27,021 bases of DNA from a virus, in IMG/VR virus record IMGVR_UViG_3300040790_000037, positions 1-27,021 of that record; one strand, 5' to 3'. This document shows positions 183 to 27,021 of this stretch, one piece after another. The translations under genes and the position numbers were made by a program. The notes below the pieces were generated by a model. It ran no database searches, was not told the DNA's origin, and saw only the letters and a program-made list of their open reading frames with translations. Every line of letters starts with the position of its first letter. Position 1 is the first letter of the stretch.

Positions 183-575
183 ATGGCTACAGTAATTAGA
201 ACTGCTATATATTCAGACTTAGATATGGAATTAACTAAACAAACAGATGGTGATGTTAAAAGAGATACAGAAATAGAAGCAGTTATTCACTCTCTTGAAA
301 ATATTATATCAACAACTCAAGGTTCCCGTAGAATGTTACCTGAGTTTGCTATTGATATTCATAATCTATTATTTGAACCACTTGATAAAAGAACCGCCGA
401 AATGATAGGTAATAGAATAGTATTGGCAATAGAAACATGGGAAACAAGAGTAGAAATAATAAAATTAAATATTGATGTTAATTATGACCAAAATTTATAC
501 AACATGACTTTGGAATTTATGTTGAAACCCTACGATGAAATAATATCAATAGACTTTGTTTTATTAGCACAATAA
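183..575 (+). CDS. 25: Baseplate wedge protein, T4 gp25-like (GPW/gp25 family)
   Basis: This 130-residue protein has the length of T4 gp25 (132) and the family's hallmark segment, GSRRMLPEF at residues 47-55, preceded by the amphipathic helix around LENIISTT (38-45). The GPW/gp25 family forms the inner part of the baseplate wedge next to the sheath-initiating ring; despite a lysozyme-like label in older work it is structural. The ATG follows a CGGAGA ribosome-binding site at 168-173. It is the first gene after the terminator and repeats and is followed by the gp6 homologue, the same W-J order as in P2. No truncation or frameshift is visible. Identification is from motif and length, with context agreeing. 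Confidence 0.93.
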   Translation: MATVIRTAIYSDLDMELTKQTDGDVKRDTEIEAVIHSLENIISTTQGSRRMLPEFAIDIHNLLFEPLDKRTAEMIGNRIVLAIETWETRVEIIKLNIDVNYDQNLYNMTLEFMLKPYDEIISIDFVLLAQ

Positions 576-576
576 A

Positions 577-584
577 TATAAATA
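577..584 (+). promoter_or_regulatory. Possible T4-type late promoter (TATAAATA)
   Basis: An exact match to the T4 late promoter core TATAAATA lies in the 47-base gap between the gp25 and gp6 homologues, 38 bases before the gp6 start. A gp55-like late sigma factor is encoded in this window, so such promoters are expected. The octamer also occurs by chance inside genes here (for example 10848 and 11351), so the support is its position rather than its sequence. Confidence 0.35.
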
Positions 585-622
585 TAAAAGAAATATAAAA
601 TATTACGGGGAGAAAAATAGTA

Positions 623-2320
623 ATGAGTACCCTTACACCTGATTATCTTTCAATAGACTATTCTAGTCTTATAACAAGATTAAAACAACAATTAAGAAAT
701 TCAGATACATTTGCAGATTATAACTTTGAAGGTGCTAATATCACAATTCTTTTAGAATTGTTGGCATATGTTACTGAATTAAATACTTATTTTACAAATA
801 AAGTAGCAAAAAATGTTCATATAGAAACGGCAGATGTTTATGAAGCCGTAAATAGAGCCGCAAGACAAATGGGATATGAACCAAAAGGTGCTATTTCATC
901 AACCACAACACTTACTATAACTCTTACAGGTGCAATTCCTGGTAACACATATAGATTATATCCATTTTCACAATTTGAATGTCCAGACGAACAAGATGAA
1001 AATGGTGATACAATAAAATTTTCAAATACAACTCTCTATACAGAGGTTGCATCTTCATCCACTGTTATATTTGAAGATGTAATGGTTAGACAAGGTATAG
1101 TAAAAGAATTAACTGGATATACTGGTGATGATTTAATTGATAATGAATTATTTTTACCTTCTAATTACGCATATGATAATAATCTTACTGACGATTATCC
1201 ATCATTAGAGGTTAGAATAAATGATGTGGCATGGACGAGAGTACCAGATTTTTGGGATGAACTATCTGCTTATTATACAAATGATGATGTTTATATGTTT
1301 GTATATGATAGATATGGAAGAAGCAAAGTAGTATTTTCAACTTCAAGAAATGTACCAACAGATGATGATACAATAGATATAACTGTTTTAGAATCTTTAG
1401 GTGCCAATAGTAATGTTGGTGCTAACTCAATTACAGCATTTCAAACAAATCTTATTTATGATGAGGATGAAGGTGAATATATTGATTCAGAACAAATAAT
1501 AGAAGTGGTAAATGACACGGCATCATCTGGTGGTCAAGACGCAGAAGATATTGGAACAATAAAAGAAAATGCTAAAGCTTCATTACATACACAATATCGA
1601 AATGTTACTGCTGTTGATTATAAAGCCCACTTACAAGAAAGGTCGGATGTTGCAGTTGCAAAAGCGTGGGGAGAACAAGATGTAACACCAGCAGGTGATA
1701 TTACTAATTATAATTTAGTCTATATATGTTTATATCCTTCTTTATGGAGTACAGACAATATTAATTGGACATCAACAACATTTTCAACTACTTGGGGTTT
1801 GACTCAAGCAATTGTTGTACCAACAACATATAATAGTGATTGGACAACGGAATTATCTCTTTATTTAGAACCAAGAAAAATGATTTCAGCATATGAAACA
1901 TACACAGTACTTGACCTTGTTTATTTTTCATTTGATATTAGCGTAAGAGTAAAAAGAGGTTATGATTTTACTTTAGTACAAACTGATATAATAAATAAAC
2001 TTCAAAGATATTTTAGAGCAACAAATCAAGAGTTTTATACTATTATAAATTTTAATGATATTGTTGAATATTTATTAGATATATCTGAAGTTGGAACATC
2101 AGATAATTATGATAATATAAAAGGTATTAGAAATTTAAATATTAGAGATATAGAAGTTAGTCATACGATGTATGAAAATAATGAAGTAGGTAATTATCCA
2201 TATTATATAGAAGATTCAAGTACATATGATGGTGATAACCAGTTAAGAAGGATACAACTCGGTTTAAATCAATTTCCAGTATTAGCAGTTGATACTGTAA
2301 GAGTAACACAGGAAGATTAA
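623..2320 (+). CDS. 6: Baseplate wedge protein, T4 gp6 / P2 J-like
   Basis: This 565-residue protein matches the gp6 class of baseplate wedge subunits. The N-terminus has the pattern of a gp6 start: short helices, then a GANITILLELLAYVTELNTY stretch around residues 38-57, then an 'ETADVYEAVNRAARQMGY' type segment around 68-86. The middle contains the baseplate J-like region, including ENAKASLHTQYRNVTAVDYK around residue 315, the conserved site where J-like proteins carry a 'tr.RAVT..DY' motif. gp6 homologues dimerise into the ring holding the wedges together. It is a little shorter than T4 gp6 (660). The ATG follows GGGGAG at 607-612. It is followed after one base by the gpI/gp7-like gene, consistent with one wedge operon. 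Confidence 0.9.
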   Translation: MSTLTPDYLSIDYSSLITRLKQQLRNSDTFADYNFEGANITILLELLAYVTELNTYFTNKVAKNVHIETADVYEAVNRAARQMGYEPKGAISSTTTLTITLTGAIPGNTYRLYPFSQFECPDEQDENGDTIKFSNTTLYTEVASSSTVIFEDVMVRQGIVKELTGYTGDDLIDNELFLPSNYAYDNNLTDDYPSLEVRINDVAWTRVPDFWDELSAYYTNDDVYMFVYDRYGRSKVVFSTSRNVPTDDDTIDITVLESLGANSNVGANSITAFQTNLIYDEDEGEYIDSEQIIEVVNDTASSGGQDAEDIGTIKENAKASLHTQYRNVTAVDYKAHLQERSDVAVAKAWGEQDVTPAGDITNYNLVYICLYPSLWSTDNINWTSTTFSTTWGLTQAIVVPTTYNSDWTTELSLYLEPRKMISAYETYTVLDLVYFSFDISVRVKRGYDFTLVQTDIINKLQRYFRATNQEFYTIINFNDIVEYLLDISEVGTSDNYDNIKGIRNLNIRDIEVSHTMYENNEVGNYPYYIEDSSTYDGDNQLRRIQLGLNQFPVLAVDTVRVTQED

Positions 2321-13985: not shown

Positions 13986-14669
13986 ATGGAATTTCAAGAA
14001 ATTGATACAACTGGAAAAATATGGGTTCAAAGATTAGCTTCTATACCTACATGGACAACTGCTGATAAAGGTAGAATTATATATAATACAGCAAACGGTT
14101 ATTACTATTTTGGTGGTGCTAGTTCGTGGGTTATAATGACAACCGGTGTAAATACAACATATTTAAGTAGAACAACTACAGATTCACACGCCGGAACAAT
14201 TTATCCAACGGTAGACGCCGCGGTTAATTTAGGTGGTGGTGTAAACAGATACGCCAATATTTATGCGGTAAATTTTCATGGTATTGCAACATCAGCAAAA
14301 TACGCTGACGTTGCTGAAAAATATATTTTAAAGACTGATTATCCTATAGGAACCGTTTTAAAAATCAATAATAATGAAAATTTTGAAATGAGACAGGTTA
14401 GTAATATAGATGATTTGGTAAGTGGTGTTGTTTCTAAAAATCCTGGTTTTATTCTAAACTCTGAATTAGAAGGTGGTACATCGGTTGCATTAGTTGGTAA
14501 AACGCCTGTAAGAGTTATTGGACCTGTTACAAAGGGTGATATGATCGGACCTTATGATGATGGTTGTGGAATAAAGACAGAAGACAGAACCAATATGTTT
14601 GCTATTGCATTAGAATCATTCTTTGGAGAAGGTGTTGAAGAATTAGTAATGTGTTTGTTAAAATTATAA
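13986..14669 (+). CDS. Tail fibre/structural protein with 'SAKYADVAEKY' domain
   Basis: A 227-residue protein. Residues 1-55 belong to the N-terminal module shared with the three short fibres (MEFQEIDTTGK..., DKGRIIYNTANGYYYF...W). Instead of a His-x-His tip it continues with a glycine-rich linker and GIATSAKYADVAEKYIL near 98-114. A compact C-terminal domain follows with GVVSKNPGF and ALVGKTPVRVIGPVTKGD (about 140-185). This pattern is seen at the C-termini of virion fibre and decoration proteins in T4-like phages and is often labelled peptidase-like or chaperone-like; no catalytic residues can be assigned here. Strong GGGGAG ribosome-binding site. It is the last structural-type gene before the sigma-70 promoter. 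Confidence 0.65.
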   Translation: MEFQEIDTTGKIWVQRLASIPTWTTADKGRIIYNTANGYYYFGGASSWVIMTTGVNTTYLSRTTTDSHAGTIYPTVDAAVNLGGGVNRYANIYAVNFHGIATSAKYADVAEKYILKTDYPIGTVLKINNNENFEMRQVSNIDDLVSGVVSKNPGFILNSELEGGTSVALVGKTPVRVIGPVTKGDMIGPYDDGCGIKTEDRTNMFAIALESFFGEGVEELVMCLLKL

Positions 14670-14699: not shown

Positions 14700-14722
14700 A
14701 TAAAATATGTGAGGTGATAAAA

Positions 14723-15837: not shown

Positions 15838-16218
15838 ATGGATAGAGAAACAAAAGTGTTCTTATGTGTGAAAAGTTTATTTAATATATCAAATGACTTA
15901 AAAGATGATTTTGAGGATTATTCAAATATATTATTATTTATTGCAGATAATATAGCAAGAAAAATGGAAAAAGAAATGGAAAATACAAAACCATCAATTC
16001 ATAAAGATGGTAATATACATAATTTAGGTGAGGGTGTGAAATCTCTTAATGAATATATGGATAACACACCAAAAATGGAAAAAGAAAAAAGTTTAGATTT
16101 TCCAATTCAAACACCAGAAGAAAGAATGATTGAAGAACAAGTTGATAATACTATAAAAGAAGTAAGAAAAGAATTAAGTAATTCAATAAAAGAAGAAACG
16201 AGTAATGTCGGATGCTGA
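15838..16218 (+). CDS. Small acidic helical protein between two radical SAM/SPASM genes
   Basis: A 126-residue, charged protein that I do not recognise. Residues 1-50 look helical (KVFLCVKSLF, YSNILLFIADNIARKM). The rest is low-complexity and acidic, with repeated MEKE-type segments. It ends in a single cysteine (SNVGC). It sits two bases after rSAM 1 and overlaps rSAM 2 by seven bases, so it is made with them. Possible roles are partner, leader-binding protein or peptide substrate; none is shown. There is no recognisable PqqD-like RRE fold in the visible sequence pattern. AGGAT ribosome-binding site. Confidence 0.55.
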   Translation: MDRETKVFLCVKSLFNISNDLKDDFEDYSNILLFIADNIARKMEKEMENTKPSIHKDGNIHNLGEGVKSLNEYMDNTPKMEKEKSLDFPIQTPEERMIEEQVDNTIKEVRKELSNSIKEETSNVGC

Positions 16219-17390
16219 AAAGAAAAGTAAGATATTTTCATATTGATTTGAATACAACAAGATCATGTAATATGGCTTGTAAATATTGTTTCGAACCAAA
16301 AGAATTAATACCTATAGGTAATAAACTTGACTTTGATTTTACTAAATCTTTTGTATATTGGGTAATGGATTTTGTTAAATCATCATTTTTTATTGATAAT
16401 TATGATATTTTAAGTATTGATTTTTGGGGTGGTGAACCAACATTATGTTCATATGAAATTAAATCAATTATTGATTACTTCGAGAATTATGAGAATATAA
16501 AATTTTATATTTACAGCAATGGATATGATATATCAGATATTAAAGAGACTTTAATAAAATATAGAAATAAAGTGGTATTAGATAACTCACCTAAATTATT
16601 ATTACAAGTTTCATATGATGGTGAAAAATTACAAGATAAGTATAGAGTCAATAAAAAAGGTGAGGGTACAAGCAAAAGAGTAAAATCAAATATAGAGTGG
16701 TTAAATGATAAAGAAATACCATTTGTAATAAAATCGGTTATTTCACCAGTTGATTTTGACTTAATGATTGATTCGTATGATGAAATAAAAGAGTTAATTT
16801 ATAACAATAATGTAAATACTGGTTATTTTCCTACAATTGAATATTATAATTCTGAAAGATTTACGGAAGAAGAAATACAGGACCATTTGAGTAAATTAAG
16901 ATATTCAATGACTATAATAACAGCAAAAGAAATAATAAGTATTTTGGATAAAAATGAGAGATTATTTTTTACTTGGTTAAAGGGTAATATAGCATTATGT
17001 AATGCCGGTCAAAACTATATATCAATTGATTATGATGGAAATATATATTCCTGTCATGGTTGTTTTTATTCAAATAAAAAAGATCATTATTTTACTAATA
17101 TGTTAAGTAATAGTAATTCAATAGATTGGATTAAAATAATTTGTAATAAAAATAAACTAAATAATAACTATATACCTCCTAAATGTGAAGAATGTGACAC
17201 ATTAATTTGTCTAAGATGTAATGTTGTAAAATATGAAAACAGTAAAAAAGAAAATTATTTTGATAAATGGAGAGACTATTCAAATCAACCAACATTATGT
17301 AGATATTATAGAGAGGCAAGCAAATTTATAAAAATTTTTAGAAATAAATTGGGGAGAGATAAATTAAATGGCGTGTACAGGTCATGTTAA
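16212..17390 (+). CDS. Radical SAM/SPASM enzyme (rSAM 2)
   Basis: A 392-residue protein. Radical SAM motif C19-x3-C23-x2-C26 (RSCNMACKYCFE) and GGEP at 73-76. The C-terminal SPASM-like domain has CNAGQNYISIDYDGNIYSC (a cysteine followed by G-x4-C), then a C-x2-C-x4-C-x2-C group (KCEECDTLICLRC) and a later LCRYYREAS cysteine. This is slightly different spacing from rSAM 1, so the auxiliary clusters may be arranged differently. The enzymes are diverged and not simple duplicates. The start overlaps the upstream gene by seven bases with a weak ribosome-binding site. Its last 23 bases overlap the start of the Cys-rich gene, a tight link that supports an enzyme-substrate relation (inference). Confidence 0.87.
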   Translation: MLKRKVRYFHIDLNTTRSCNMACKYCFEPKELIPIGNKLDFDFTKSFVYWVMDFVKSSFFIDNYDILSIDFWGGEPTLCSYEIKSIIDYFENYENIKFYIYSNGYDISDIKETLIKYRNKVVLDNSPKLLLQVSYDGEKLQDKYRVNKKGEGTSKRVKSNIEWLNDKEIPFVIKSVISPVDFDLMIDSYDEIKELIYNNNVNTGYFPTIEYYNSERFTEEEIQDHLSKLRYSMTIITAKEIISILDKNERLFFTWLKGNIALCNAGQNYISIDYDGNIYSCHGCFYSNKKDHYFTNMLSNSNSIDWIKIICNKNKLNNNYIPPKCEECDTLICLRCNVVKYENSKKENYFDKWRDYSNQPTLCRYYREASKFIKIFRNKLGRDKLNGVYRSC

Positions 17391-17859
17391 TAGTTGTTTA
17401 ACACATCCGGGATATATAGGACCACGAACAGCAACAGTTTGGACTGATCCAACATTAAATACTAGTATAACAATAAAAGCAACTCATTTTAATCAATTAA
17501 GAACAGCAATCATAAATGAATTAGCAGTTAGAGGTTTGGGAACTAGTGGTATGTATGGTGCGCAAAGTTCTGGTACTATTATATATTCAGTTTTATATAA
17601 AGGTTTAAGAAGTAATATGGAAAGAATTGATGCGGCTCAATGGGCCGCCTATAGTGCTGTAGAAAAAGCAAAAATGAATGATACAGCTCTAGCAATTGGT
17701 TCATTAATAGAAGATACAACAACTGCTGCATTTAGAACATACACAAACTATATGGAAAGTTTATGTGTGTGTAATTGTAATTACGCCTGTACTTGTGATT
17801 GTAATTATTGTACTTGTAATTGTGCAAATGAATGTAGTTGTCAAACATATTATTATTAA
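17368..17859 (+). CDS. Protein with 11-cysteine C-terminal tail, candidate radical SAM substrate
   Basis: A 163-residue protein. Residues 1-130 are an ordinary mixed domain, with C3 and C10 near the start and a 'TDPTLNTSITIKATHFNQLRT' type region at about 26-46 that looks more like a structural protein than a leader peptide. Residues 133-158 hold 11 cysteines (133, 135, 137, 141, 143, 145, 148, 150, 152, 156, 158). They form three CxCxC runs and one CxC, separated by NYA, NY and ANE; the end is QTYYY. Such a tail could be thioether-crosslinked by the two upstream SPASM enzymes, or could bind metal. The ATG follows GGGGAGA and lies inside the end of rSAM 2. Whether it is a virion protein, a released peptide or a metal binder is not resolved. 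Confidence 0.72.
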   Translation: MACTGHVNSCLTHPGYIGPRTATVWTDPTLNTSITIKATHFNQLRTAIINELAVRGLGTSGMYGAQSSGTIIYSVLYKGLRSNMERIDAAQWAAYSAVEKAKMNDTALAIGSLIEDTTTAAFRTYTNYMESLCVCNCNYACTCDCNYCTCNCANECSCQTYYY

Positions 17860-20737: not shown

Positions 20738-21166
20738 ATGGCAAAACCTTATTATGTAAAAAATTCAGAACTCTTACCTCATATTCATGTATATAGAGAG
20801 ACAGGAGTTGTATCAGAAGAACTTGGTGGATTTATCTATAAGATAGCATACAATTATGCAAATAAAGGAAGTTTTTACGGTTATACTTGGAAAGAAGATA
20901 TGGTATCAGAAGCAGTATTGACTTGTATTAAGTATATGCATAATTTTGACCCAATGGCCCAGAAAAGACCAAATCCATTCGCATATTTCACAACAGTTAT
21001 TCATAATGCCTTTTTGAACTATATAAGAAAGCAGAAAAAACATAGTAAAATTAAAGACATATGTTGGAAAAATTGTTATCTACTAGATAAAGAAGAAATA
21101 TATCATACAAAAGCTATTGACTATAGAGTAATGAAAAGGACAGATGATGCGGACGAGTCGTGTTAA
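20738..21166 (+). CDS. 55: Late-transcription sigma factor, T4 gp55-like
   Basis: A 142-residue protein resembling T4 gp55 (185 residues), the sigma factor that directs host RNA polymerase to TATAAATA late promoters. Shared blocks are YYVKNSELLP at 5-14, the GYTWKEDMVSEAVLTCIKYM segment around 48-67 (the GYT-WK-EM-A pattern of gp55), HNFDP at 68-72, and 'NPFAYFTTVIHNAFLNYIRKQKK' near 79-101. The latter corresponds to sigma region 2, used for core binding and -10 recognition. The C-terminus is shorter than in T4. AAAGGAG ribosome-binding site. It is the first gene after promoter P2 and overlaps the next radical SAM gene by 23 bases, so both are expressed together. Its presence supports a T4-like late programme for the tail genes. 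Confidence 0.88.
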   Translation: MAKPYYVKNSELLPHIHVYRETGVVSEELGGFIYKIAYNYANKGSFYGYTWKEDMVSEAVLTCIKYMHNFDPMAQKRPNPFAYFTTVIHNAFLNYIRKQKKHSKIKDICWKNCYLLDKEEIYHTKAIDYRVMKRTDDADESC

Positions 21167-21953
21167 TGTTTTATATTTAACTACCAAATGTAATATGTCA
21201 TGTGACTATTGTTATGAAAAAGCGAGTAGAGATAATCTACCAGAACAAATTGATGTATCAAAAGAAGATATTAATAAATTTTTAAAAGAAATATCAGAAA
21301 GAGAGAAAAATCAAATATCCACCATCGTCTTAATGGGAGGTGAGGTATTTCTCAAACCTAATTTATTAAAATATGTATTTGATAAAATGAGTAATATGAA
21401 TCATAAGTGGGGATCATCAATTACTACAAATGCAACATTATTTGATAATGGTGAGTTAATAAACGATTTATATTTTAATAAGAGTAAAAATGTAAGTTTA
21501 ACTATTGAAATAAGTTATGATTGTAGCGGTCATGATAGAAGAACATTTAGAAATGGTCGTTTCACAAAAAAGGTAGTTGAAAATTCACTTGATTTACTTG
21601 TAAAAAGTAACATACCCTTTAAAATTAGTTATACACTACATAAAGATAACTATAATAATTTTGTACATGATATGATTTACATATGTGAACGATGGGGTAG
21701 TCATCTTTTAAATATAAAAGTATCACCATTTTTTAGTGAATTAAATGAATATTTTGGTGAAAATTCATTGGAGAAAATTGGTATTCTGGCCAATGCTATA
21801 GGAAAAAGATATAAGATATATATTTGTGATTTCAATTGTAGTGTGTGTAAAAAATGTGATAGGTCAAATTTTATTGGTAATTCTTATTTATCACCTAATA
21901 AGAGTATAATATATGAAGAAAGTGAAACACAAAAATTATTTGATAAGTGGTAA
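21144..21953 (+). CDS. Radical SAM enzyme (rSAM 3)
   Basis: A 269-residue protein. Radical SAM motif C16-x3-C20-x2-C23 (TKCNMSCDYCYEK) and GGEV at 65-68. The C-terminus has CDFNCSVCKKCD near 230-241, a compact Cys group that could bind one auxiliary cluster; there is no complete SPASM domain. Two adjacent ATGs can serve as start: 21147 has better spacing (six bases) to AAAAGGA at 21134-21140 than 21144. The start lies inside the end of the gp55-like gene. The substrate is unknown. Similarity to the other radical SAM genes here is limited to the core motifs, so it is a separate subfamily. Confidence 0.82.
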   Translation: MMRTSRVNVLYLTTKCNMSCDYCYEKASRDNLPEQIDVSKEDINKFLKEISEREKNQISTIVLMGGEVFLKPNLLKYVFDKMSNMNHKWGSSITTNATLFDNGELINDLYFNKSKNVSLTIEISYDCSGHDRRTFRNGRFTKKVVENSLDLLVKSNIPFKISYTLHKDNYNNFVHDMIYICERWGSHLLNIKVSPFFSELNEYFGENSLEKIGILANAIGKRYKIYICDFNCSVCKKCDRSNFIGNSYLSPNKSIIYEESETQKLFDKW

Positions 21954-21955
21954 AA

Positions 21956-23026
21956 ATGATAAAAGTAGAAACAAAATCAAAGGTTATTGGACGTCCACAA
22001 TATTCTAAAAACATAGTAAAATCAAAACCACAATTAGTTGCTTTTGGTGATATTGATATGTTTAATAGTGGTAATGTGAAATTATTATGGACACCCACAG
22101 AGGTTTGTAATTTTAATTGTTCTTATTGTGGTTATAAAAGAATAAAAAATCCACACCATTCAACAAATGGCGATATAAAAAGATCAATTAAATTTATGGA
22201 AAGAATACAAGATGTAAAAATCATAAAGAAATTATTTATCATTGCTGCTGAACCAACATTGGTAAAAAATTTAGACTTGATAATAGGTACTATAAAACCT
22301 TTATTGATAAATTGTGATATTATAACATTATATTCTAATATGAGCGCAAGTATAGACTTGTATAGAAAAATAATGGATTTGTTTATTGATGGTAGTATGA
22401 TGTTTTCATTGTTTCCATCATTTCATAAAAAAGACATAGATGTAGATGTTTTTATGGGTAAATTATGGACTCTCAAAGAAGAATATGGTAATTACAGTAA
22501 CATATCTCTTGACAGTATTAGTTTTATGGTTGAAGATGATGATTATCACGAAAGAGCAAAAGAAGTTTATGAAAAATATCCAGGTCTTAGATTTCATTTG
22601 TTTCCAATAAGAGAAAAGGGTGATATAATTAAGATAGAACAACAATTTTATCAAGAACCATATAAAACAAAGAATAATATAGTAAAAATTTATAAAGATG
22701 GTAGTGAATATTTCTATACTAAATTTTTGAATAATGAATTACCATTAGTACCTGAATTTAAAAATTTTATATGTCAATCATGGGATAATTTGTTATATCT
22801 TGATGCAAAAGGATATTTAAGATATTGTACTTTAACAAATCCTCAATGGGATATGAATATAAAAGACTTAGAAGAAACTATTCAAAAATTGAGAAATAAA
22901 AAAAGACAAGTTTGTAATGTATCTCAATGTTTTTGTGATTGGGATGTTCCAAAATATAAGATATCTGAATACAATAAGATAAAGTCATGGACAAAAAAAG
23001 ACATATTACAACTGAAAATGTTGTAA
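21956..23026 (+). CDS. Radical SAM enzyme with degenerate GGE motif (rSAM 4)
   Basis: A 356-residue protein. The motif C51-x3-C55-x2-C58 (EVCNFNCSYCGYK) is preceded by an unusually long 50-residue N-terminal extension. The usual GGEP is AAEP (FIIAAEPTL), so SAM binding may be altered. The C-terminus has CQSWDNLLYLDAKGYLRYC (a cysteine followed by G-x4-C) and CNVSQCFCDWD, a twitch or partial SPASM arrangement resembling the last radical SAM gene at 26061. The ATG 21956 is preferred over GTG 21947, which would lie before the upstream stop; neither has a strong ribosome-binding site, and coupling to the upstream gene is likely. It overlaps the next gene by 40 bases. Confidence 0.78.
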   Translation: MIKVETKSKVIGRPQYSKNIVKSKPQLVAFGDIDMFNSGNVKLLWTPTEVCNFNCSYCGYKRIKNPHHSTNGDIKRSIKFMERIQDVKIIKKLFIIAAEPTLVKNLDLIIGTIKPLLINCDIITLYSNMSASIDLYRKIMDLFIDGSMMFSLFPSFHKKDIDVDVFMGKLWTLKEEYGNYSNISLDSISFMVEDDDYHERAKEVYEKYPGLRFHLFPIREKGDIIKIEQQFYQEPYKTKNNIVKIYKDGSEYFYTKFLNNELPLVPEFKNFICQSWDNLLYLDAKGYLRYCTLTNPQWDMNIKDLEETIQKLRNKKRQVCNVSQCFCDWDVPKYKISEYNKIKSWTKKDILQLKML

Positions 23027-23811
23027 TATTTTACAATTGGTTTAATGGTATAAATGGTGCGTTGATAGATGCTTTTGAATATTATATATCAATATTAGAA
23101 AAAGTACCTGTTAAATTTCTATTGATAAATCGTATAGATAGAAAACTTGATAATATATTACACATGTTTGAAAATAGATATGATTTAGATGATCTGAAAT
23201 GGAAAGAAAATATAATAACAACAACACTTCCTAAACTCATTCATCTTAATTTTAAGAACTCTTTAGTTGTTGACTACTCAACTATAAACAAGACAAAGGG
23301 TCTTTTAAGGTCAGAAAAGATAATTGTAATATCTGACTTTCATACAGATAAAAAAGAGTTTATGTATGATAAGAAAAAACAGAATGTTATATACTATGGT
23401 GAAATGCCATTTGTTTATAATGATGTTCCATATAGAATGAAATTTTTATTTGATAGATTCAAAGAGTTGAGATATGTGAAAGATAGAATATATATCAATA
23501 GTCCATTCAATAAAGATATCAGTTTTGTGAATAAGTTGAATCTGAATAAAGAAGTTATATTTAAGTCAACATCACATTTAGATAATTTATTTGAACAGTT
23601 TAATACCTATATATACTATCACGCAAATAAATGGTTTGACCCACATCCAAGACTGTTTCACGAATGTTATTTTTATGGTAAGAACATTCAATATATCAAT
23701 GATTACGGTGTGTTAGATGGTGGTTATTATAGATATGTTGATTTGAAAAAAACGGGTTTAAATAATAGATATTTGAATGAAAATGATGAAATAGTGAAAG
23801 AGTTTCTATGA
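22987..23811 (+). CDS. Glycosyltransferase-like protein (GT-B-like), copy 3
   Basis: A 274-residue protein. The N-terminal strand and loop (NVVIFYNWFNGINGALIDAF, from residue 11) align with the two earlier copies. The C-terminal block TYIYYHANKWFDPHPRLFHE then CYFYGKNIQYI near 208-236 has Y-I-Y, D-P-x-P and E-x4-GK as in copy 1, giving GT-B-like donor-site features. It starts 40 bases inside rSAM 4 with no other start available in frame before the first strand. It overlaps the deacetylase gene by four bases (ATGA). Small size again suggests a minimal or atypical enzyme. It likely acts with the neighbouring deacetylase on a sugar-containing target (inference). Confidence 0.55.
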   Translation: MDKKRHITTENVVIFYNWFNGINGALIDAFEYYISILEKVPVKFLLINRIDRKLDNILHMFENRYDLDDLKWKENIITTTLPKLIHLNFKNSLVVDYSTINKTKGLLRSEKIIVISDFHTDKKEFMYDKKKQNVIYYGEMPFVYNDVPYRMKFLFDRFKELRYVKDRIYINSPFNKDISFVNKLNLNKEVIFKSTSHLDNLFEQFNTYIYYHANKWFDPHPRLFHECYFYGKNIQYINDYGVLDGGYYRYVDLKKTGLNNRYLNENDEIVKEFL

Positions 23812-24368
23812 AAAAAATATTAATGATACATGATGTTAATGAAGATATACTAAAACTACCGCTGGACCAATACATCTTAACTTTTGATGATGGTTTATAT
23901 AGTCAATTTTATTATTGGCCTCTTATAAGGGAGATTAATACAGAGAAAATCTTTTTTATAACTTGTTCATATGTATCTGATTATAGTATGGAAAGACCTG
24001 TTTTTAATGGTAAATATTATAGATTTATGGATTGTATCAATGCTAGACAAGATTTTGAAAAGTCTGGTGATAGGTCACAATATATGTCTTTATGTGAGAT
24101 ATATAAGATATACTCAGAGGGTGGAATCATAGGTGGTCATAGTTATTTTCATAAGAAATATGAAAAGGGTATCATATTGGATTTATTAGAATTTAAGTAT
24201 GATACCGAAAGAATGATAAAATGGTTTGATGAGTTATTAAAGATAAAACCCACTCATTATTGCTTCCCATTTAATAAAGAGAAATTATTAATGAGAGAAA
24301 TATTAAGAAGATATGGTTTCACCAATTTCTATGGCAATGAAAGAGTACCAGTGGAGGCTCTATTATGA
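23808..24368 (+). CDS. Polysaccharide deacetylase-like (NodB/CE4) protein
   Basis: A 186-residue protein with the CE4 (NodB homology) signature: TFDDG at 25-29 (the two aspartates are the base and metal ligand) and H111-x3-H115 in GGHSYFHKK, the metal-binding histidine pair. A later CFPFN near residue 153 stands where the third motif (RxPY) normally lies. The family removes N-acetyl (or O-acetyl) groups from sugar polymers such as chitin or peptidoglycan. The length is near the minimum for the domain and no signal peptide is visible, so it would act in the cytoplasm on an intracellular or nucleotide-linked sugar. It overlaps genes on both sides by ATGA. Confidence 0.75.
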   Translation: MKKILMIHDVNEDILKLPLDQYILTFDDGLYSQFYYWPLIREINTEKIFFITCSYVSDYSMERPVFNGKYYRFMDCINARQDFEKSGDRSQYMSLCEIYKIYSEGGIIGGHSYFHKKYEKGIILDLLEFKYDTERMIKWFDELLKIKPTHYCFPFNKEKLLMREILRRYGFTNFYGNERVPVEALL

Positions 24369-25183
24369 ATTATCTAACATTATTTTTAACTGAACAATGC
24401 AATAGAAAATGTGAATATTGTGACATAAGTAAAATTGAAAACAAGAAAAAACCTAATAAACCTACCGTCAGAAAATTCATACCACTAATAAAAAAATCTT
24501 CTTGGTCAAATATAGTATTAACGGGTGGGGAGGTTTCTTTAATTGACCCATTACTATTAGATTTCATAATGACTGAGTTAAAAGATAAGATACTCAAAAT
24601 CAACACAAATGGTTTGTGGTTTAAATTTGGTCATTTCAAAAAATATTATGAAATAACCGACTACATTCAATATCATCCCATATCTGAAATAAATGAACAT
24701 TTTGAACCTATAATTGATAAAAAAATAACTTATTACTTTCCAATACACAAGAAGAATATTGATTATCTTGATGATTTTTTGAATAGAAATAGAAATTTAG
24801 TAATAAGATTAGCACCTTATGATATGAAATATTTGAATAATAAGTATTTGTTAAGTGTTGGTGATTTTACTGAAATAAGTAGAATCATAGGAAAATATGG
24901 TAACATAACAACCGATACAAAGAAAATGTTTGATTTTCTTTCAAGAAATAATGATTTAACTTTGTTAAAGAAAATGTGTTTCTATCCATCAATAGATTTT
25001 GTTAATTGTAGGATTAACAAATGTATAAAAAGTCATTCACTATCTACTTGGATATCACTAACTGAAGAAAATTTTAACAATATGGAACAGTTAAAATATA
25101 CTAAAGATAGTATGTGTGATTATTGTCATATGTTTGTAAGAGATTTTGAAACAATAATAAGGAAATTAGTATGTTCGGATTAG
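24365..25183 (+). CDS. Radical SAM enzyme (rSAM 5)
   Basis: A 272-residue protein. C12-x3-C16-x2-C19 (EQCNRKCEYCD) and GGEV at 54-57 followed by an INTNG strand. Additional cysteines at 205, 215, 220, 251, 254 and 270 suggest an auxiliary cluster but no standard SPASM domain. It is paralogous to the next gene (shared LF-TE-CN-KCEYCD, L-LTGGE, K-NTNG, YY...HP blocks). The ATG overlaps the deacetylase stop (ATGA). A QueE-like role was considered because of the small size, but the sequence beyond the core motifs does not support it. The substrate is unknown. Confidence 0.82.
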   Translation: MNYLTLFLTEQCNRKCEYCDISKIENKKKPNKPTVRKFIPLIKKSSWSNIVLTGGEVSLIDPLLLDFIMTELKDKILKINTNGLWFKFGHFKKYYEITDYIQYHPISEINEHFEPIIDKKITYYFPIHKKNIDYLDDFLNRNRNLVIRLAPYDMKYLNNKYLLSVGDFTEISRIIGKYGNITTDTKKMFDFLSRNNDLTLLKKMCFYPSIDFVNCRINKCIKSHSLSTWISLTEENFNNMEQLKYTKDSMCDYCHMFVRDFETIIRKLVCSD

Positions 25184-26064
25184 AGAATAAGTTATCTGCT
25201 GTTAGATTTTCATTGTTTATAACCGAGTTGTGTAATTTAAAATGTGAGTATTGTGATATACCACTACAAAAAGAACATTTTGATTGTAATGCAAAACTAT
25301 TATTAAAATATCTACCAATTATTGATACATATGATTTTGATTGTTATACTCTTACTGGTGGTGAACCAGGACTTTCATCCTGTATTCCAGAAGTATTTGA
25401 CATTGTAACAAAACCTGTAAAAGTCAATACTAACGGAGTGTTCTTTGAAAGAGGATTTTTCGAAAAATATTATGATAAAATTCAAGAGGTTGGATACCAT
25501 CTTTTGAAGCATCCTGGCGAAGTCGTTCCAGATTCGTCGTTATTGAGAGATAAAAAAATAGTGTTATACATACCCTTCGATAATTATAATTGGTTTTTGA
25601 TACCTAAAATGGTTGAAGATAATCCTGATATAATGTTCAATTTTATACCTTATATTAGAAAGATAGAAGGTGATAGTCACGATAAAACAGTATCACTTGA
25701 CAATATGAGAAAGTTATACAAATCAATATATCACTTCAAAAATACTCAATCAAAAAGTTTATCAATATTAATGAATAAATTAAATCAATCCAATTTAGAA
25801 TCCCATAGAAAATTTTGTATGAACTCAAATACTCGTTATTTGTTTGACTTCACAAGAGGAAAAATATATAGGTGTGCTAAAAGCCGTATACATAATAAAA
25901 GTGTAGAAATGAATGATGAGAATATTGATAAAATTAAGACATTTACATTATTCGAGAATGATGATATTATGGACGAGGCTTGTAAAGATTGTTACTATTT
26001 TACATTCTTTTTAAGATATGCAATGAGAAATAGTATATTAAAGAATAAGAGGAATTATAGTTGA
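25171..26064 (+). CDS. Radical SAM enzyme (rSAM 6), paralogue of rSAM 5
   Basis: A 297-residue protein. C21-x3-C25-x2-C28 (ELCNLKCEYCD), GGEP at 63-66 and VNTNG. The C-terminus has C216, G230-x4-C235 (RGKIYRC) and C271-x2-C274, a partial SPASM (twitch-like) layout that probably holds one auxiliary cluster. It overlaps rSAM 5 by 13 bases and is its diverged tandem duplicate. Its stop TGA shares TTGA with the next gene's TTG start. The pair may act on two positions of one substrate or on related substrates. Confidence 0.82.
   Translation: MFGLENKLSAVRFSLFITELCNLKCEYCDIPLQKEHFDCNAKLLLKYLPIIDTYDFDCYTLTGGEPGLSSCIPEVFDIVTKPVKVNTNGVFFERGFFEKYYDKIQEVGYHLLKHPGEVVPDSSLLRDKKIVLYIPFDNYNWFLIPKMVEDNPDIMFNFIPYIRKIEGDSHDKTVSLDNMRKLYKSIYHFKNTQSKSLSILMNKLNQSNLESHRKFCMNSNTRYLFDFTRGKIYRCAKSRIHNKSVEMNDENIDKIKTFTLFENDDIMDEACKDCYYFTFFLRYAMRNSILKNKRNYS
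26048..26063 (+). promoter_or_regulatory. Ribosome-binding site deciding a TTG start
   Basis: AGAGGA at 26048-26053 is followed seven bases later by TTG (26061-26063), which overlaps the previous stop as TTGA. The frame has no ATG or GTG before its radical SAM motif, so this TTG is the best start. Confidence 0.65.
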
Positions 26065-27021
26065 ATATAATTTTCAGTGGTTCATTTCATAATTATGTTT
26101 ATGATGATACTCTATTTGTATCATGGAACTTGATAGAAGATTGTAATTTTAACTGTTACTATTGTGGAACCAAACAAGGTAGAAGTTATGGTAAGGATAA
26201 CTATAAGAAATTATTGAATGAAGAATTGATATCAAATGTAATAGATTTAATATCTTCAAAAACAAATTATGAAAAGATTGATTTTACTATATCAGGTGGT
26301 GAACCAAGTATAATAGAAGAACATCTTTTTGAATTTTTACTAAATGAGATAAAAGATAAATTAAGTTCTTTCAAAACAACCATTAGATATATGACTAATT
26401 TATCTAATGAAATTTCATATTATAAAAAGTTATGGAATATACTTGATAACTCAAGAATATTATTTTCACCAACAATACATTATCAAAGTAATATTGATAA
26501 ATTTGAAAGTAAAATAAAGAAATTATCATATGAACCTATTATAATTGATATAAGAGTTCCTATTATAGCAAAAAGTATTAGAATGTCTATACATAGATAT
26601 GAGAAATTAAAGAAAATGATAAGTGAAAATATTTTTGTTATTCCAAAGTATATTATGGAATTTGAAAATAAGATAAACAAAAATACTTATGATTGGATAG
26701 TTAGAGAGAATGAAGATATAGTTTATAAACAACCACTTGATTTATCTTTTGATACATTAATACTTGATGATAATGATAATGTTATTTGGAAAAAACAAAA
26801 TAGAGATATATTCAGTAATTATTATAAAAAAGGAATAAAATGGATATGTTATTTAAAATCTAATATCTTTATTGATTATAAAGGTTTATCTTGGAAGTGT
26901 ATAAATGACTCAAATGCTGGTAAGATAATAGATAATGATATAGTATTATGTGAGTATCCAGTATGTTCTTGTGGTCATCAAATACCAAAGATAAATTTGA
27001 AGTATAAGAAAAGAGTTGAAA
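26061..27021 (+). CDS. Radical SAM enzyme (rSAM 7), partial, TTG start, runs off the right edge
   Basis: An open frame of 320 codons reaches the window end without a stop. Starting from TTG, it has C28-x3-C32-x2-C35 (EDCNFNCYYCGT) and GGEP at 79-82. Near the visible end a C-x11-G-x4-C group (CYLKSNIFIDYKGLSWKC) and LCEYPVCSCG resemble the C-terminus of rSAM 4 (G-x4-C, then C-x4-C-x-C). It is thus the closest relative of rSAM 4 here but keeps the normal GGEP. The ribosome-binding site and TTGA overlap support the start. The C-terminal cluster region appears nearly complete, so the stop is probably not far outside. Confidence 0.78.
   Translation, partial: MNIIFSGSFHNYVYDDTLFVSWNLIEDCNFNCYYCGTKQGRSYGKDNYKKLLNEELISNVIDLISSKTNYEKIDFTISGGEPSIIEEHLFEFLLNEIKDKLSSFKTTIRYMTNLSNEISYYKKLWNILDNSRILFSPTIHYQSNIDKFESKIKKLSYEPIIIDIRVPIIAKSIRMSIHRYEKLKKMISENIFVIPKYIMEFENKINKNTYDWIVRENEDIVYKQPLDLSFDTLILDDNDNVIWKKQNRDIFSNYYKKGIKWICYLKSNIFIDYKGLSWKCINDSNAGKIIDNDIVLCEYPVCSCGHQIPKINLKYKKRVE

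Follow-up and report, generated by a model that had tools for sequence, protein, structure and literature searches.

The question raised by this locus is whether a viral gene whose product ends in a dense run of cysteines encodes the substrate of the radical SAM (rSAM) enzymes around it, and what kind of protein that substrate would be. The window, that is, the whole stretch of 27,021 nucleotides that was analysed (IMG/VR record IMGVR_UViG_3300040790_000037), is near-identical to a 61-kb record that extends it (L001). The baseplate wedge genes assign the locus, on sequence grounds, to a phage tail module. The features that matter here are the following:

183..2320, + strand: two ORFs, baseplate wedge genes (PHROG baseplate wedge subunit, E 2.7e-30 and 7.9e-42)
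13986..14669, + strand: fibre-like ORF just 5' of rSAM A, with a weak Peptidase_G2-like C-terminus; found at the same place in L042 and L043
14714..15835, + strand: rSAM A (rSAM 1 of an earlier note on this DNA), radical SAM/SPASM enzyme (PF04055, E 2.3e-12)
15838..16218, + strand: small ORF of 126 aa between rSAM A and B; similarly placed small ORFs occur in L042 and L043
16212..17390, + strand: rSAM B (rSAM 2 of the earlier note), radical SAM/SPASM enzyme, the partner tied closest to the Cys-block gene (PF04055, E 1.4e-8)
17368..17859, + strand: Cys-tipped tail-fibre-like protein, proposed substrate of rSAM A, B and C (ORF, conservation, AF2)
17425..17763, + strand: front domain, residues 20-132, predicted by AF2 to be all-helical
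17764..17841, + strand: Cys block, residues 133-158 (CVCNCNYACTCDCNYCTCNCANECSC), from the translation and its alignment with the repeat blocks of relatives
21144..21953, + strand: rSAM C, third conserved partner (PF04055, E 8.5e-13; orthologues aligned)

The 126-aa ORF has no convincing family match in Pfam or NCBIfam. Four more complete rSAM ORFs lie 3' in the window, starting at 21144 (rSAM C), 21947, 24365 and 25171; the last three are not conserved across the family, and in the same region (21947 to 27021) one more rSAM-like ORF begins and is cut by the end of the window.

The ORF at 17368-17859 begins with ATG and encodes 163 residues, 13 of which are cysteines (positions 3, 10, 133, 135, 137, 141, 143, 145, 148, 150, 152, 156 and 158). 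The translation bears out the eleven cysteines that the earlier note had counted within residues 133-158, a density which was never reached (0 of 100,000) when the protein's own residues were shuffled. The start of the gene does lie, as the same note had it, inside the end of rSAM B, with an overlap of 23 nt, and a ribosomally made candidate precursor is thus found directly beside a putative peptide-modifying enzyme. The two additional N-terminal cysteines (3 and 10) were absent from that note. The ORF is, judging from its sequence, a real gene, because it is conserved: 30 relatives align with it lengthwise. The AF2 model built with 30 relatives predicts a folded front domain, as had been supposed (pLDDT ~92 over residues 20-132; helices 38-54, 74-87, 89-94, 97-101 and 116-131), and places most of the Cys tail below pLDDT 50, the unmodified chain being predicted to be largely disordered. 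With ~110 residues in a confidently predicted fold, the front domain is not organised like a leader. Searches of solved structures by sequence and by fold gave no significant match to the protein, and Pfam and the translation revealed neither a Peptidase_S74 domain nor an S74 motif in the window protein. The weak fold matches of the front domain are to large uncharacterised archaeal rod-shaped virus proteins (E 0.27 to 0.9, probability 0.72-0.84). Many members also carry C-x-x-H repeats (MACTGHVNSCLTH) at the N-terminus (17368-17410 in the window; L026; L027, in several copies; L020), a second Cys/His-rich stretch of these proteins.

A first search of viral contigs provided 15 loci with relatives of the Cys-tip protein, and the family set was built from tail scans, one scan of bacterial and archaeal genomes and enzyme-first scans, with an automatic pattern for the Cys block. 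When the window protein was compared directly with 50,697 phage records by tblastn, no match was obtained; the relatives in annotated phages were reached via IMG/VR and then a Campylobacter homologue. The family contains at least 73 distinct phage proteins made up of a helical front domain and a Cys block, the latter consisting of tandem seven-residue units, C-T-C-[ND]-C-N-Y, or of shorter units with two cysteines. The constraint on the units extends beyond the cysteines: in the 249 units counted, N or D occupies position 4 in 92%, N stands at position 6 in 89% and the unit closes with Y, F or H at position 7 in 96%, and some units have an eighth, spacer residue (A or S). The copy number ranges from three units in the window to 28 (L017/L209), four being the commonest form among the matches listed, and it varies even between near-identical contigs (L018 versus L019-L021). 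The two-Cys class, which the first pattern missed and which was therefore defined post hoc, is exemplified by CICNSDCSCNLVCSCHNDCGCNY-SD and includes CxCNxD and its variants (L059, L060-L064, L067, L074-L077, L081, L089, L092, L151, L161).

Some loci bear two to four Cys-block genes in tandem behind one enzyme set (L072/L232, L087/L233, L026, L028, L037), which suggests alternative tips. Phage-like copies were also found inside a Chloroflexi MAG (L041) and a Thermoplasmata MAG (L042 and L043), possibly as misbinned phage contigs. Other CxC-rich viral proteins (CECECTCTCTCTC...) encoded near unrelated rSAMs (L167, 5965-6540; L176, 9368-9931; L099, 12141-12860) are possibly further systems of a similar sort.

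The rSAM genes around the Cys tails were grouped into three orthologous families, A, B and C, represented in the window by the ORFs starting at 14714, 16212 and 21144; the other rSAM genes of the tail-bearing phages are not conserved. The earlier note had seen two SPASM-type rSAM neighbours. Both score above the Pfam cutoff for Radical_SAM, whereas SPASM is sub-threshold in Pfam; the SPASM character is recovered by the NCBIfam SPASM model, whose cutoff rSAM A exceeds, and by the seven conserved SPASM-type cysteines that accompany the CX3CX2C motif in both A (13 phage orthologues aligned) and B (family alignment, 12 orthologues). rSAM C has the CX3CX2C motif and a four-Cys C-terminal cluster motif. 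Orthologues share ~22-47% identity with the window copies and keep the rSAM and auxiliary-cluster cysteines. The best NCBIfam model for the three enzymes is the ranthipeptide maturase PapB, at 147 bits for A (E 5.7e-43), 76 for B and 62 for C, against a cutoff of 340 bits, and this model gives the best E-values, matching every one of the 13 A and 12 B members. Among solved structures, the closest to A by sequence is CteB (5wgg/5why), and the AF2 model of B retrieves at the top an anSME (anSMEcpe, the best by E-value) and the thioether-forming CteB. The resemblance to PapB, anSME and CteB therefore indicates chemistry on peptide cysteines, in kind rather than in exact type. An N-terminal leader-binding extension is absent from A, B and C in the window.

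If the Cys block is the substrate of these enzymes, the two should be found together, and the earlier note had proposed to look for such co-occurrence with SPASM genes. It was recovered from both directions and spans dozens of only distantly related phages. Starting from the tail, A, B or C is encoded at the locus for 31 of the 36 distinct tail proteins, and four of the remaining five lie at contig edges. Starting from the enzymes (A and B alignments), a Cys-block gene is present at the locus in at least 56 of at least 57 distinct rSAM-B systems, a count that leaves out two outliers (L028 and L176); the sole B system without one among the matches listed is an 8.6-kb fragment. In at least 25 B systems the Cys-block gene lies no more than 60 nt 3' of B, and five B systems among the matches listed are devoid of a convincing A. 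As a control from the same scans, two or more CxCxC units were found in 3 of the 69 listed loci that have other rSAMs only, none of them of this type. Among the 50,697 phage records, the 15 with the tail protein are the same 15 with B, all from one genus. Homologues with the same tail and no rSAM gene nearby had been named beforehand as evidence against the proposal: only one contig with adequate flanks is of this kind (L025, IMGVR_UViG_3300033146_001939; 43.8 kb, a 17-unit tail and no rSAM anywhere on the contig).

Several candidates were set aside. L006/L007 and L012/L013 were rejected as counterexamples: their contigs end within ~1.6 kb of the tail gene, and a relative, L041, has its rSAMs 3-8 kb 3'. 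The incomplete rSAM genes that L022 and L231 have at their contig ends do not belong to family C. The faecal records H46 and H47 match B but seem to represent cellular rSAMs: an N-terminal extension is present, and a Cys block of the kind described here is missing.

The system is not restricted to metagenomic contigs: the isolated Campylobacter phages CP220 and CPt10 resemble the window in having CLCDCNYCTCDCNY repeats together with orthologues of A, B and C. In CP220 these genes are scattered (A at 16.4 kb, C at 83.9 kb, the tail protein at 160.9 kb and B at 164.8 kb), and their being kept although dispersed argues for retention rather than mere linkage. The earlier view of the tail and the enzymes as one system is thus upheld as regards its conservation, and amended in that the set is A, B and C rather than two adjacent genes, adjacency being unnecessary in CP220. 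In the part of the CP220/CPt10 paper available to us, the 11-12 rSAM genes of Campylobacter group II phages, termed highly unusual in 2010, are given as unexplained and separately from the repeat region, with no link between the two (PMC2853527). The same part describes the 21-bp repeats of CPT_0180 as the sole intragenic repeat region of CP220, and reports that six of the seven repeat regions tested changed length inside a plaque-purified stock, without naming the six (PMC2853527). The tail protein is absent from the 11 CP220 virion bands identified there by SDS-PAGE (PMC2853527). In CP21 (CP21_105) and in OP654737 the Cys-tail protein is labelled N-acetylneuraminate pyruvate lyase, apparently in error, and the rSAM B of CP21 is split into two ORFs (CP21_110/111; HE815464/NC_019507, 78884-80003), because the gene is disrupted or the sequence contains a mistake.

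The composition of the enzyme set also follows the type of unit. C is present in at least 29 systems with three-Cys units, whereas the two-Cys units are accompanied by B and often A, and all 19 two-Cys systems among the matches listed are without C, whole records of up to 281 kb included. The other three-Cys systems are those of the Campylobacter phages (C elsewhere in the genome), fragments, L028 (a diverged C) and L176 (an unrelated locus); L086 and L090 have one three-Cys unit although C is missing from their records, which are 174 and 281 kb long. A crude Fisher test over the matches listed, with unresolved cases counted against the association, gives P = 2e-10. On the B tree the two-Cys class needs only two changes, and therefore few independent events stand behind this correlation. 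That the enzyme set tracks the unit type is nevertheless good evidence, of a comparative kind, that A, B and C would act on the Cys block, and it is suggestive of a role for C in serving the extra cysteine of the three-Cys units.

The relatives of the window protein indicate where in the virion the Cys block may be placed. At least 18 of the at least 73 family members continue in frame, after the last Cys unit, into a complete Peptidase_S74 chaperone, which scores above the Pfam cutoff in every fused protein tested and starts directly after the Cys block. The fused junction reads ...CTCNCNY-SDERLKENI..., with the Ser-Lys cleavage motif SDxRLK. In phage endosialidases and MYRF, the S74 serine and a lysine five residues on form a catalytic dyad, and the C-terminal product starts at the serine (PMC3742443); the serine and lysine of the fused relatives are likewise five residues apart. 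At least 22 other members end ~12 residues after the serine, and others, including the window protein, end at or shortly after the Cys block. At eight loci among the matches listed (L003, L004, L043, L075, L151, L222, L231, L238) the fibre gene ends ~12-15 residues past the cleavage serine and the remainder of S74 is a separate 3' ORF in a varying frame; the chaperone would seem to be provided in trans. A programmed frameshift, considered for the out-of-frame remainder of L043, was rejected since the remainder has its own start and a varying frame in the other loci. Tail-fibre PHROGs match several family members. The suspicion that the front domain belongs to a virion-type protein is strengthened by these matches, by the chaperone of the relatives and by the baseplate neighbours, all of which point to a tail fibre. 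If the same cleavage takes place here, the mature tail fibre, a trimer, would end at its C-terminus in the Cys block as its tip, given that S74 begins directly behind the last Cys unit.

These observations lead us to favor, with a probability of about 0.68, the reading in which the product of the gene at 17368-17859 is a tail-fibre or fibre-tip protein of the phage whose Cys tip is modified by A, B and, for the three-Cys type, C, likely through thioethers. The tip as substrate of the three enzymes appears well supported by the sequence comparisons, and the thioether chemistry is proposed by analogy with PapB; that the modification takes place, that the fibre is cleaved and what the tip does are steps that we infer. 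The enzymes would act on the newly made tip, borne by the helical front domain, before trimerisation of the fibre, because the tip is still flexible then. In each C-T-C-[ND]-C-N-Y unit, they would join the Cys sulphurs to the side chains of nearby Asp, Asn, Thr or Tyr. Thuricin CD provides an example of two rSAMs working as a single complex (PMC12093266). In the relatives, the S74 chaperone would drive trimerisation; cleavage of the Tyr-Ser bond just behind the Cys block would then remove it, and the fibre would end in the exposed tip. For contact with surfaces, a function suggested by its position at the end of the fibre, the modified tip would be stiff, of adjustable length, resistant to proteolysis and insensitive to redox conditions. 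It seems to us an even call whether this constitutes a new class of virion modification, in which two or three rSAMs make a polythioether or otherwise cross-linked rod at a trimeric fibre tip, with an enzyme set fitted to the number of cysteines in each unit and a length tuned by repeat slippage.

One alternative, which we deem unlikely, is that the rSAMs modify the Cys block in another manner, by converting Cys to formylglycine as anSME does, by Cys-Tyr or C-C cross-links or by epimerisation. It draws on anSMEcpe, which oxidises a peptide cysteine, being the best solved structure for B by E-value, and on the NCBIfam matches of A and B, which cover several chemistries, cyclophane formers among them; nevertheless, PapB scores best for both enzymes. 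Aromatic cross-links would find Y, F or H in the three-Cys units, yet many two-Cys units, such as CICNSD, have no aromatics. The Cys-x-Pro/Ala-x-Arg context, which we take to be that of anSME targets, is missing from the units, and this counts against formylglycine.

It is less probable still, in our opinion, that the Cys block forms a tip which binds metal or Fe-S clusters or is joined by disulphides, comparable to the needle of T4 gp37 with its iron-binding histidines, and that the rSAMs serve another purpose in the tail module. T4-type fibre tips do hold metal ions, the dense CxC spacing resembles metal ligands and the tail of L025 has no rSAM on its contig. Yet the tail is accompanied by three specific rSAM families whichever of the two is searched for first, even where the genes are scattered, the enzyme set follows the unit type, and metal ligation does not account for the conserved N/D, N and Y. 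Both readings could also be true together, with modification first and metal binding after. A travelling tail-module cassette, whose rSAMs modify host surface glycans or small molecules and are merely co-inherited with the fibre gene, would fit the unconserved rSAM genes 3' in the window and its relatives and the frequency of rSAM genes in large phages remarked upon for CP220 (PMC2853527), but is very improbable given that conservation among the rSAMs is limited to A, B and C, that CP220 retains them unlinked and that all three are most like peptide maturases.

If the favored reading, modification of the Cys tip by A, B and C, is true, viruses would use the radical peptide chemistry of small RiPPs to build a structural part where the fibre meets the host, and the 11-12 rSAM genes of the Campylobacter group II phages would be partly explained. 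Protein engineering would also gain a cross-linked scaffold that is built of repeats and can be adjusted in length, and three orphan enzyme families would have a substrate on which they can be tested directly, with isolated phages available. A full-text search, largely of open-access journal papers, found no paper linking rSAM enzymes to phage fibres.

Among known systems, PapB/PapA (freyrasin, NF047865) is similar in its rSAM/SPASM enzyme and in its Cys-rich repeated target with Asp/Asn near each Cys; A and B have the rSAM core and a SPASM domain with two auxiliary cluster motifs. The links formed by PapB are Cys-Asp/Glu thioethers, and it accepts Cys-Xn-Asp with n = 0-6 (PMC9413430). Contrary to PapA, the phage target is a larger folded fibre rather than a short leader-core peptide, two or three enzymes are present and there is no apparent leader removal. 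The system is not filed as a ranthipeptide because all three enzymes miss the curated NF047865 cutoff and the units lack Cys-X3-Asp/Glu repeats, their Asp/Asn (position 4) lying three residues and one residue after a Cys. SCIFF/CteB-ScfB (TIGR03974) likewise has a thioether-forming SPASM enzyme, and CteB is the best solved structure for A by sequence and near the top for B by fold, but its precursor differs, the phage A and B are without the N-terminal extension of ScfB and they score under the family cutoff. The S74 fibres (PF13884) share with the relatives the S74 domain with its Ser...Lys dyad, which here follows the Cys block, though the chaperone is a separate ORF in some relatives and absent from the window protein; to our knowledge, a Cys-rich, rSAM-linked tip is not part of such fibres. 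QhpD is an rSAM/SPASM enzyme that cross-links cysteines in a structural protein subunit, not in a secreted peptide, and its model (TIGR03906) matches rSAM A with E 2.9e-22. Its target is a cellular enzyme subunit with no CTCNCNY repeats, and it acts as a single enzyme. By analogy, QhpD is nevertheless a precedent for the cross-linking of a protein subunit by an rSAM enzyme, and the phage system would work like a RiPP pathway on a structural protein.
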